DNA of 64,000 bases, from the NCBI RefSeq assembly GCF_000973105.1, contig NC_015844.1, forward strand, positions 992,001 to 1,056,000, read 5' to 3'. Source of the DNA: Zobellia galactanivorans (GTDB lineage: Bacteria; Bacteroidota; Bacteroidia; Flavobacteriales; Flavobacteriaceae). Below are positions 1,295 through 34,026 of the stretch, piece by piece (the first letter of the stretch is position 1; the number at the start of each line of letters is the position of its first letter). The position numbers and the translations under genes were made by a program. The notes below the pieces were generated by a model that was given only the letters and a program-made list of their open reading frames with translations, did not search any database and was not told where the DNA came from.

Positions 1295-1317
1295 AAGTCC
1301 CGTTTTTCACGGGACTT
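1295..1317 (-). terminator. Attenuator terminator hairpin upstream of pheA
   Basis: On the minus strand AAGTCCCGT (1317-1309), loop GAAAA, ACGGGACTT (1303-1295) form a perfect 9-bp stem followed by a run of T, an intrinsic terminator placed before pheA rather than after a gene. The 5' arm AGTCCCGT (1316-1309) is also fully complementary to ACGGGACT (1357-1350) at the end of the upstream leader peptide gene. That gives an alternative antiterminator stem which excludes the terminator. This is the classical layout of transcription attenuation. Confidence 0.85.
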
Positions 1318-1342
1318 CAATTGGTTTATATCATGCAATATT

Positions 1343-1414
1343 TTACAACAGTCCCGTACCTCTCTCAAAAAAGAAGTAAAAATAAAAACCGTTGAAAAAG
1401 AATCGCTTTGTCAT
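1343..1414 (-). CDS. pheL: Phe-rich leader peptide of the pheA operon
   Basis: This 23-codon ORF starts MTKRFFFNGFYFYFFFERG and ends at TAA (1345-1343). Eight of 23 residues are Phe and two are Tyr, clustered at residues 5-16. The antiterminator strand ACGGGACT (1357-1350) covers the last sense codons. A ribosome stalled at the Phe/Tyr codons would leave that strand free to pair with the terminator arm and let transcription continue. A ribosome reaching the stop codon would cover it and let the terminator form. The composition, position and complementarity are seen directly; the mechanism is inferred by analogy with proteobacterial pheL. I found no clear promoter matching TAnnTTTG upstream. 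Together with the attenuator it accounts for most of the 439-base gap between pheA and gldA; the rest is AT-rich sequence plus the gldA promoter. Confidence 0.85.
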   Translation of the reverse strand: MTKRFFFNGFYFYFFFERGTGLL

Positions 1415-11300: not shown

Positions 11301-11410
11301 TTCCTTATTTCCTTCTTATGTCGCACGTTCATGCACAAAGGCCCCTCTTAGACCAATCTACAAACAACTATCAAGCAAAGGAATAAGGACAGACAATCTT
11401 GCCTCTCTTT

Positions 11411-11513
11411 GTTATCTGTCCCACAAATACTAGGATAGAATGTAGCACCTTCTTTATAAGAAAAGGGTTGCCAAGGTTTCACTGGGTCTATTCCCTCCAC
11501 CTTTCTTGATAAC
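11411..11513 (-). ncRNA. SAM-I (S-box) riboswitch upstream of metH
   Basis: On the minus strand the sequence runs GTTATC, AAGAAAGGTGGAGGGA, then GAAACC, TTGGCAACC, GGTGCTACATTC and GATAAC, the conserved S-box core in order. P1 is GTTATC (11513-11508) with GATAAC (11416-11411). The 3' side of the aptamer, GGACAGA (11421-11415), is complementary to TCTGTCC (11393-11387) downstream, an alternative stem that would break P1. I see no strong T-run, so transcriptional versus translational control is open. SAM binding is expected to lower metH and metF expression. This element and the terminator at 11606-11643 account for most of the 368-base gap. Confidence 0.93.
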
Positions 11514-11605
11514 AGTCTTGTTATTTTTATGAACGATTTGCAAAGTAACGCCACATATGGTTCAAAACCAAAGAAACCTTCCGGTTTTTGGCGGCTTGCA
11601 TTTAA

Positions 11606-27549: not shown

Positions 27550-30500
27550 TTATTTATATCCTTTTTCTGCTATTCGTAAAATATCGCCAAAAACACCCCT
27601 TGCCGTAACGGCTGCACCTGCACCCGCCCCTTGAATCACTAATGGATTTTCGCCATATGACTCGGTATAGATCTCTATAATGGAATCGGATCCTTTTACC
27701 TGTCCCAAGGCACTTTCTTTGGGCACCGATATGAGTTTGACGTCCAAAATACCCTTCTCTTCCTGAAGATTACCGTGCAAATCGCCCACATACCGCAGTA
27801 CATGGCCGGGCTTTTGGTTCTTTTTAATTTCGTTGAACTTGGCATCTACCAAATCGAGATGGTCCAAGAAATGCTGTACATCGCCATCCCTCAACTCTTC
27901 GGGAATCAAGTTTTCAATGTTTACATCGGAAAACTCGTTGCGTAGATCGAGTTCCCTGGCAAGGATCAACAATTTTCGGCCCACATCGTTACCCGATAGG
28001 TCTTCGCGGGGATCCGGCTCGGTAAAGCCACTTTTCATTGCCGTCCTTAAAATATTGGAAAAGGGTTCCTCGCTCTCTGAAAAGGTATTGAAGATATAAC
28101 TCAAGGAACCTGAGAACACCCCTTTGATACCGGTAATGTTTTCACCCGAAAGGTGTAACAAACGTATGGTATCGATCAAAGGAAGGCCTGCCCCCACATT
28201 GGTTTCGTACAAATATTGTTTCTGGTGCTTATCCAACTCATCGCGCAACAACTGGTAGTAATCGAAACCGAGCGTATTGGCTATTTTATTGGACGACACA
28301 ATATCGAAACCATTCTCTACAAACTCAAAGTAATGGGCTACAAAATCGCTATTAGCCGTATTATCGACCAAAATGAGGTTCTCTAGATGGTTTTCCTTGG
28401 CATATGCGATAACATCGCCTACCTTATATGGAGTACCCTTTTCTTCTATGGCCGTTTTCCAATTTTTAGGAATACCCTTTTTATCCAATAGGATTTTCCT
28501 CGAATTGGCCACAGCAAAAACGTTGAGGTCTATCCCCTTTCGCTTTTGAATGGTCTTGGTAGATTTCAAAATTTGGTCAATAAGCGTTCCGCCCACATTT
28601 CCATGTCCGAAAATCACCAAATTGACTTTTTTACTGATTCCGAAAATCTGTCCGTGCATTACGTTCAAGGCCTTGTTCAGGTCCGATTTTCTAAGTACCA
28701 AACTTACATTCCTGCCCGATACCGTATTATTAAATAGCAATGGGGCAATCTGGTTCTTTATCAAGGCATTGTACGGTCTATGGAAGGTACTCAAATCTTG
28801 ACCTACGATAGAAATGACCGAGACCTCATCGAGTACGGTAATCATATTAATGTCCTTCGACTGGTAATCGCTTTCGAATTCCCTGTCCAAAGCCCTCTTG
28901 GCCTCTAGGGCCCGGTCGGCATTTACGACCAGGCCAATGCCTCGCTCCGAAGAGCCTTGGGAGATGATACTTACACTAATATTACTTTTCTGAAGCGCAC
29001 TGAAAATACGTGCATCGACCCCAACTTTCCCTAGGAGTCCCCTACCCTCTACATTGATCAAGGATACGTTTTCAATAACCGACAAGGACTTAATACCCCC
29101 CTCTTTGGTCTTGGCACTGATCAAGGTTCCCTCATTGTCGTTATTGAAGGTATTTAAAATACGAAGGGGTATATTTTTTTCTATTAACGGAATAATGGTC
29201 TTGGCATGCAAAATGGTCGCCCCGAAATTTGCCAGTTCGTTCGCCTCTCCATAGGAAAGGTGCGAAATGCGCTTGGCATCGGATACCAAATCGGGATTAG
29301 CCGTATATATTCCGTCTACATGCGTAAAGTTTTGAAGCTCCTCCGCATTCAGGAAATTAGCGAATAGGGCCGCCGAATAATTACTGCCATTACGACCCAA
29401 AGTGGTAGTTTCCCCATTTTCATCAGAAGCGATAAAACCTGTAATAATCGGTACCGCATCGGCATCTAACTTGGCAAAACGGCGTAAAACGTTTTCTTTT
29501 GAAAGCGTTTCGTTGACCGTGGCATCCCCAAAATTAGAATCGGTTTTTATCAATTCCCTAGAATCGAGCATTACCGCATTTATCCCTTTTCCTATAAGCA
29601 GTTTGGTCACCAATTTTGCAGAAATAAGCTCCCCGAAGGCCAATAACTGGTCTTTTATCTTTAAGCTGTAATCGCCCAAAAGCGAAACCCCTTCGAGTAA
29701 TTTTGCCAAATCTTTAAACTCGGCCGAAAGGTTGACATTCTTAAAGACACTCTTTTGGTACTTTTCAAAAGCCTCAAAATCTTCATAGTAATTTTCGCCC
29801 CTTGCGGCCTTTTCCAATATAGCTTCCAGTTGGTCGGTGGCCTTTTCACGGGCAGAAAGTACCACGGCAATATTTTCACCTTCTTCTACTTTTTTCGAAA
29901 CAATACCCAAAACACGTTCCAATCCCTCGCCATTGGCCAGTGATTTTCCTCCAAATTTCAAAACCTTGATATGTTTTGACTTTCCATTTCTACTGAAAAC
30001 CGGCTCCAGCAATTGTTCCATCTGCTCAAATTCTATCAAAAAGGCATCGTGACCGTGGAGGGAGTGCACCTCACCGTAAGTAACGTTACCATTGGCCTGT
30101 GCCAAGCGTTTAAAGGTCTCCTTGTTTTCCTTGGCCGTAAAGAACAAATCGGAATCAACCCCGATGATATGGATATTCACATCGCTGTTCTGAAGGTCGA
30201 TAAAATTCTGCTCCCCGTTCCTCATGACATCTATGGTCTTGAGCAACTGGTTCATGAGCTTATAGGCCGAAAGTTGAAATCGTTCCTGTAACTTTTCCCC
30301 GTGATGCATCAACCAACTTTCCACGTTAAAAACCTGAAGTTCCTCATTGGTACTCCGCTTAAAACGCTCTTTGAAAGACTCGGGTGTACGATAACACAAC
30401 ATGGCGTGCATACGCGCATCGTGAACGGGCTTTTTGCTATTGACCAAAAACTGTTCTTGTATCTGGCAATTACCGATCAACCAATCCGTAGATTTCCAGT

Positions 30501-32285: not shown

Positions 32286-32410
32286 AATTCTAGATTTTTA
32301 ATTGTTATTTAAAATAATTAAAAGCCCAACCATAGACTACGGCCTTGTAGTTAGGTATAATATCAAAAAAGTTATAAGAAAGTAAAAGATTAGGATGAGT
32401 AATCTATTTC

Positions 32411-32521
32411 GTTATCTGTCCTAATAATTATTTCAGGATAGAATGTAGCACCTTCTCTGTATAAGAAACAAAGGGTTGCTAAGGTTTCAAAGGGTCTATT
32501 CCCTCCACCTTTCTTGATAAC
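32411..32521 (-). ncRNA. SAM-I (S-box) riboswitch upstream of metY
   Basis: The same core as the metH element: GTTATC (32521-32516), AAGAAAGGTGGAGGGA, GAAACC, TAGCAACCC, GGTGCTACATTC and GATAAC (32416-32411). The 3' strand of the last hairpin, ATTAGGA (32425-32419), is complementary to TCCTAAT (32395-32389) downstream, again offering an alternative stem. With the promoter at 32553-32585 it accounts for most of the 314-base gap; bases 32286-32388 hold AT-rich leader with no clear terminator. Confidence 0.93.
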
Positions 32522-32552
32522 TGATCAATACGTGTTTGAACTTTTGGAAATA

Positions 32553-33856: not shown

Positions 33857-33930
33857 AACAAACTTTTATTTTTTCGTAAAAGGATCTGAAAGGAATGCCG
33901 AAAGAAGATGATGTGAATCGAATCTACATC

Positions 33931-34008
33931 AACTGCTTTAGCATTTTTTTGTTTTTATCACCCTACTCAGGTTTAAAACAGAGGTTGCAATCAGTCAAAT
34001 CCCTCCTC
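33931..34008 (-). ncRNA. Probable SAM-II riboswitch upstream of metK
   Basis: On the minus strand GAGG (34008-34005) is followed by AGGGATTTGACTGATTGCAA and then CCTC (33984-33981). After a spacer of about 37 bases comes GCTAAA (33942-33937) and then CAGTT (33935-33931). This follows the SAM-II order: P1 stem, loop with TTGCAA, then GCTAAA. GACTG in the loop can pair with CAGTT as the pseudoknot. The spacer is longer than in the shortest SAM-II RNAs. It lies about 75 bases before the metK ATG, and SAM as ligand fits feedback on metK. Class assignment is by recollection of the consensus. Confidence 0.65.
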
Positions 34009-34026
34009 TTTAATTTAATTAGGACG

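Follow-up and report, generated by a model that had tools for sequence, protein, structure and literature searches.

A putative ribosome-mediated attenuator with an aromatic leader peptide upstream of pheA in Zobellia galactanivorans and other Bacteroidia

In E. coli, pheA is preceded by the pheL leader, which consists of a phenylalanine-rich leader ORF, alternative RNA pairings and a terminator in front of the gene. Attenuators of the trpL and hisL type follow the same logic as the pheA leader, and Bacteroid-trp RNA is an attenuator of the trp operon. Attenuators in Bacteroidetes/Chlorobi are reportedly mentioned by Vitreschak et al. in 2004.

An older view has attenuators as mainly proteobacterial (PMC3766115, PMC2965389). 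Leader peptides have already been proposed in Bacteroidetes (PMC9723704, PMC7366714): in Bacteroides thetaiotaomicron, short ORFs within long 5' UTRs were described as reminiscent of attenuation leaders (PMC7366714), and Bacteroid-trp RNA (RF01692) was tabulated as a candidate cis-regulatory RNA of Bacteroidetes (PMC2864571). PMC9723704 (2021) reports that pheA of Flavobacterium psychrophilum and other Flavobacteriaceae is preceded by a structured 5' element, at the same gene and in the same bacterial family as the attenuator considered here. It also reports strong clues for leader-peptide attenuation at amino-acid operons of F. psychrophilum, and its pheA and hisG elements are present in other genera and have no Rfam hits. 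The existence of a pheA element in Flavobacteriaceae is already known. For this element we found no leader peptide, strands, aromatic codons or spread beyond the family given in PMC9723704, and nothing on it in PMC4833913, PMC8305728 and PMC1183508. In the open-access literature searched, we found no description of the leader, the three pairings, the mix of aromatic codons, the spacing that serves as a ruler or the class-wide spread.

We analysed a 64-kb stretch (the window) of the Z. galactanivorans genome, which is a single contig of 5,521,712 bases; coordinates below are those of the window. The gene at 402-1229 (−), which from family knowledge we take to be pheA, encodes a prephenate dehydratase of 275 amino acids and is the first gene of an operon. 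The second gene (1-405, −) encodes an aminotransferase of 381 amino acids and is truncated at the window edge. tyrA (prephenate dehydrogenase) and a DAHP synthase/chorismate mutase gene follow on the same strand outside the window; the names of these two and of the aminotransferase were read from translations. The gene order pheA, aminotransferase, tyrA, DAHP synthase/chorismate mutase was found at 79 of 80 named loci, and at the remaining one the last gene was absent from the DNA examined. Among the named loci of the scan, the closest PheA was that of Zobellia barbeyronii (92% identity).

A preliminary description of this DNA had proposed a Phe/Tyr-rich leader ORF in front of pheA, and re-reading the sequence confirmed it. 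The ORF MTKRFFFNGFYFYFFFERGTGLL (1414-1343, −) runs from ATG to TAA and encodes 23 residues, of which 8 are Phe and 2 are Tyr, with the aromatic codons within codons 5-16. Farther upstream, a weak, possible −7 promoter box TACTTTAG (1433-1440, −) was picked by eye; it is of the TAnnTTTG type, the −7 consensus of Bacteroidetes. The promoter scan was ambiguous in the Zobellia sequence, where the top-scoring site differs from TACTTTAG. Upstream of the leaders as a set, the type was enriched, with a score of at least 8 at 102 of 157 loci compared with 7 of 157 after shuffling.

The run of aromatic codons alone was rejected as evidence, with 28 genome-wide matches against 31 for the backwards pattern. 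Runs of seven F/Y codons occur at 12 distinct sites of the genome, and a terminator lies downstream at the pheA leader only. We defined the device by a rule: an ORF of 10-45 amino acids in which a stretch of 12 residues contains at least five F/Y/W, followed within 75 nt of its end by a hairpin with a T-run. Three other distinct ORFs on the two strands of the window satisfied the rule, each with 5 aromatic residues in 12, compared with 10 in the pheA leader.

Downstream of the ORF, the proposed terminator stem with its T-run was also borne out. It reads GAAGTCCCGT-GAAAA-ACGGGACTTT (1318-1294, −), forms nine Watson-Crick pairs and one G-U pair, and has a run of seven T (1290-1296, −); the spacer from the T-run to the pheA start is 60 nt. 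The 3' arm ACGGGACTTT (strand 4; 1294-1303, −) pairs with GAAGTCCCGT (strand 3; 1309-1318, −), which can instead pair with ACGGGACT (strand 2; 1350-1357, −), the antiterminator strand, which lies close to where the leader ORF ends. As described earlier, ACGGGACT (1357-1350) is exactly complementary over 8 bases to AGTCCCGT (1316-1309), and 4 bases separate the antiterminator strand from the stop codon (1345-1343) downstream of it. The further claim that a separate 1:2 pause hairpin is lacking, which would make this a two-state device, did not hold. Folding of the leader predicted a 1:2 hairpin inside the ORF together with the terminator, and the 1:2 helix covaries in relatives. Folds and pair counts place the 5' side of its outer helix (strand 1) at 1385-1394 (−) within the ORF and its 3' side at 1346-1355 (−), overlapping strand 2. 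The fold of the whole leader had a z-score of −3.75, and none of 200 shuffles was as stable. In 18 of 157 folds, upstream pairing did not extend over most of strand 2. Strand 2 can take part in either 1:2 or 2:3, and strand 3 in either 2:3 or 3:4; the switch design is the classical 1:2 / 2:3 / 3:4 rather than a simpler two-state one.

We consider it highly probable that the leader is a ribosome-mediated transcription attenuator responding to charged tRNA-Phe and tRNA-Tyr, and in many relatives to tRNA-Trp as well. RNA polymerase would transcribe the leader with a ribosome close behind. When an aromatic aminoacyl-tRNA is short, the ribosome would stall with an aromatic leader codon in its A site, covering strand 1 and with its front edge just short of strand 2. 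Strands 2 and 3 would then pair before strand 4 is made, which would block the terminator and let pheA, aminotransferase, tyrA and DAHP synthase/chorismate mutase be transcribed. When charged tRNAs are plentiful, the ribosome would reach the stop codon and cover strand 2, 3:4 would form and transcription would end. If the leader is not translated, 1:2 would form and 3:4 would again terminate. That the leader is translated, that ribosomes stall on it, that transcription terminates and in which direction the operon responds are predictions for the pheA attenuator.

The leader ORF was conserved in the regions upstream of pheA in relatives, and the device was found at 28 of 30 of their loci, own genome included (the best 30 of the 46 relatives with pheA). 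It preceded pheA at 79 of 79 named loci, mostly of Flavobacteriaceae; these include other Flavobacterium species, without F. psychrophilum, and one locus without upstream DNA (L065) was excluded before the tally. Class-wide, 64 of 90 pheA loci carried the device (63 of 89 plus that of the window's genome, G000), the 90 loci being every pheA match in a class sample of 296 genomes, and it occurred at least once in 19 of 28 families of Bacteroidia. The relatives, named and class sets overlap (e.g. L032, L034 and L058 come from genomes that the relatives set contains too), and identical sequences were removed before the counts of 157, 142, 63, 41 and 36 given in this text. Applied to the same upstream regions after reversal or shuffling, the rule yielded 0 of 198 in either case.

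By the same rule, the device was absent from 26 of the 90 class-wide loci; it was found in 0 of 8 loci of family f27 and 3 of 8 of family f30. The two relatives' loci without it were L017 and L025. At these loci the device may have been lost, or the leader may have moved to another first gene. Outside the class, 20 loci were chosen for family spread. Four of them (L267-L270) carried the device, and these were the four matches with a PheA E-value below 1e-90; the remaining 16, with weaker PheA matches, were without it. Every leader found there accompanies a Bacteroidia-like PheA gene, as though the leader and its operon had moved as a unit. A model search of the same genome revealed no convincing second copy (32.1 bits and E 0.155 for the runner-up, compared with 129.6 bits). 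Model matches were found in 109 of 149 genomes of the family at E 0.01, in some of them twice, and the weak ones may be due to chance.

At 44 of the 79 named loci, the end of the T-run and the pheA ATG are 0-5 nt apart. The T-run ends 0-2 nt before the pheA start at 17 of 79 (L049, L050, L052-L055, L057, L060-L064, L067, L076, L105, L107 and L110), and at this distance the stem may also hinder translation of pheA. Control could be mainly translational, the leader ribosome opening or closing the pheA start and termination being secondary, and the terminator 0-2 nt from the start codon at those 17 loci speaks for it. However, the pheA start lies 60 nt downstream of the T-run in the window's genome, and a T-run follows the stem at the counted loci (as the rule requires). 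We regard this explanation as very unlikely.

The three pairings on which transcription attenuation would depend were compared in an alignment of 36 sequences: the window's leader plus every distinct 23-residue leader from the named loci. For 2:3, 93.8% of cells were paired and both sides had changed at 5 of 8 pairs, which was matched by 0 of 500 shuffles. For 3:4, the values were 94.8% of cells and 6 of 9 pairs (0 of 500 row shuffles). With 91.7% of cells paired, changes on both sides at 5 of 19 pairs (22 of 500 shuffles) and 14 such cells (1 of 500), 1:2 is the weakest-supported of the three helices. When the partners were slid by 1-3 columns, pairing dropped to 18-61%, a comparison that favours the unslid version because the structures were taken from the window's own sequence. 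Comparative tests for conservation of the ORF and of the compensatory pairs in relatives were thus run, and both came out in favour of the preliminary description.

Partner swaps gave a similar picture. We used 63 distinct strand 3s, from the class sample and 14 hand-named loci of the family. Strand 2 scored 18.19 with its own strand 3 and 13.03 with those of other loci, its own being the better partner in 59 of 63 cases (p=7e-12); over all unique loci this was so in 134 of 142. On average, 17.7% of swapped strand 3s fitted as well as the locus's own, because many loci share GTCCCG. Examples of strand 2/strand 3 pairs are GCCGGGACT/AGTCCCGGC, CAGGGAC/GTCCCTG, GAGCGGGA/TCCCGCTC and GAGGCTTT/AAAGCCTC.

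The spacing of the stop codon had been stressed in the preliminary description. Across 157 distinct loci the position of this codon varies: strand 2 may end as much as 28 nt ahead of the end of the stop codon or up to 13 nt beyond it. What is conserved is the spacing between the last aromatic codon and the start of strand 2, which was 9-12 nt at 119 of the 157 loci and ranged from −4 to 15 nt overall; its standard deviation was 3.4 nt, compared with 10.2 nt when the stretch was shuffled once per locus. A ribosome reaches about ten nucleotides beyond its A-site codon, and a spacing of 9-12 nt is the expectation for the front edge of a stalled ribosome. We placed the ribosome edge at the A site + 10 and tried stalls at codons 5, 7, 10 and 12-16 of the Zobellia leader. 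With stalls at codons 5, 7, 10 and 12-15 all 8 bases of strand 2 would be free, and at codon 16 seven; 2:3 formed at each tried stall position before strand 4 exists. Equilibrium folding was rejected as proof of the switch, as the full leader gave 3:4 at every ribosome position tried. In minimum-energy folds 2:3 prevails only as long as strand 4 has yet to be made, and the model therefore requires kinetic timing.

For the ribosome at the stop codon, we assumed a footprint from −20 to +10 relative to the end of the stop. By this geometry it would mask strand 2 in the Zobellia window; it covered strand 2 wholly at 114 of 157 loci, partly at 34 and not at all at 9. Masking at the stop thus leaves the off state unexplained at the 43 of 157 loci with partial or no cover. 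At L119, L132, L140, L155, L168, L178, L179, L183 and L188 the stop lies too far past strand 2, and another explanation of the off state is needed for them.

The codons themselves bear on whether the ORF is read by ribosomes. Among 41 distinct 23-residue leaders, changes from the consensus in codons 5-16 numbered 28, 67 and 91 at codon positions 1, 2 and 3. The replacements comprised 46 aromatic-to-aromatic, 44 synonymous and 15 aromatic-to-other changes, and 19 at non-aromatic codons. This positional pattern and the exchange of one aromatic residue for another point to selection on aromatic codons and not on a U-rich tract, and we infer that the leader ORF is translated. In a translation-independent attenuator, by contrast, an RNA-binding protein or a small-molecule sensor would set the switch and the ORF would be incidental. 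Such a device would accord with hairpins that are stable by themselves and with PMC9723704 (2021), which lists the pheA element as structured and makes no translation claim in its main text. It would leave the codon-position bias and the aromatic-for-aromatic replacements without a cause, as well as the spacing between the last aromatic codon and strand 2, which is preserved though the strand sequences differ; moreover, no Rfam riboswitch or T-box was found at the gathering score at the leader. We give this explanation even less weight than translational control. Hardly more can be said for an ORF that encodes a functional small protein and has a terminator to itself, with pheA read from a separate promoter behind it: the pattern around N-x-FYFYFFF is well preserved among the 23-residue leaders and Zobellia has 60 nt between T-run and pheA, but class-wide it is chiefly aromaticity that is retained, with variable ends and lengths (16-40 amino acids, 10th-90th percentile 19-27), a T-run 0-5 nt from the ATG at 44 of 79 named loci leaves no room for a promoter, and strand 2 covaries with strand 3.

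Leader-peptide attenuation before pheA, as originally suggested, is supported by the conserved ORF, the terminator and the covarying pairings. The suggestion of a Phe-only sensor has to be revised. Phe and Tyr codons were present in all of 142 distinct leader peptides and Trp codons also in 69, and the operon includes tyrA and DAHP synthase. The last control codon was Phe in 108 of these leaders, Tyr in 30 and Trp in 4. To judge by its codons, the leader looks like an aromatic sensor rather than a Phe-only one: it encodes Phe and Tyr, often with Trp, in keeping with an operon that makes Phe and Tyr and includes the common entry step. Each of the three aromatic tRNAs may act on the switch.

Among the hallmarks of an attenuator, the pheA leader has a short upstream ORF enriched in codons for the amino acids that the operon produces, a 1:2 hairpin that overlaps the control codons but is weaker here than 2:3 and 3:4, a 2:3 antiterminator that excludes the terminator and is backed by covariation, a putative intrinsic terminator between leader and first gene (from sequence and fold), and a strand 2 that by geometry would be free with the ribosome stalled on control codons. 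The pheA leader is very probably a genuine leader-peptide attenuator with classical logic, and with broader sensing and a much wider spread than the first reading could show. A more far-reaching proposal is that a single attenuator family, ancestral to most Bacteroidia and travelling with this type of pheA, reads all three aromatic tRNAs at once and gates both the entry step (DAHP synthase) and the branches to Phe and Tyr; we consider its chances to be even. If it is true, tight transcription-translation coupling at 5' leaders would be old and general in Bacteroidota. The pheA attenuator would be a natural multi-tRNA sensor and could serve as an endogenous reporter for testing such coupling.

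Other loci of the window's genome carry similar arrangements. trpE (L230) is preceded by a leader ORF containing WWW and by a terminator, and hisG (L201) by the HHH leader MKNRNTHHHFYTGSQAR, located by eye in a three-frame translation, and a terminator; we consider these ORFs putative Trp and His leaders. The ilvD loci and a second PF04715 locus of this genome had no clear leader. The attenuator in 19 of 28 sampled families of Bacteroidia and the Trp and His leaders of one genome make a case for an established and probably old strategy in this group. The window also contains two SAM riboswitches (RF00162) and one SAM-II long-loop riboswitch (RF01726), at 11409-11515, 32409-32523 and 33928-34014, all on the (−) strand, and a homoserine dehydrogenase domain at about 27577-28182 (−). 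A Flavo-1 RNA (RF01705; 7373-7449, −), a Flavobacteriaceae motif without assigned function, barely exceeded its threshold (43.2 against 42 bits).

Rfam 15 yielded no match to the pheA attenuator at the gathering score, and no Rfam leader family reached that score in 20 chosen diverse loci. The best match of a permissive scan was RF01859 (Phe_leader), on the right strand and in the right place (31.8 bits, E 0.0013, 361 bases). It did not reach the gathering score of 55, and many pairs of the model were unmatched in the alignment. The Rfam scan found no match to Bacteroid-trp RNA (RF01692) in the window; that RNA differs from the Zobellia attenuator in both operon and amino acid. Attenuators of the trpL and hisL type serve one amino acid each, whereas the pheA leader encodes two or three aromatic ones. 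The E. coli pheA leader and the Zobellia leader share a Phe-rich ORF, the 1:2 / 2:3 / 3:4 alternatives and a terminator before pheA. Unlike pheL, leaders of the Zobellia type mix in Tyr and often Trp codons, and their operon also contains the aminotransferase, tyrA and DAHP synthase/chorismate mutase genes. Judging from their leaders, ribosome stalling is very probably the means by which these bacteria sense aromatic amino acids, as in E. coli.
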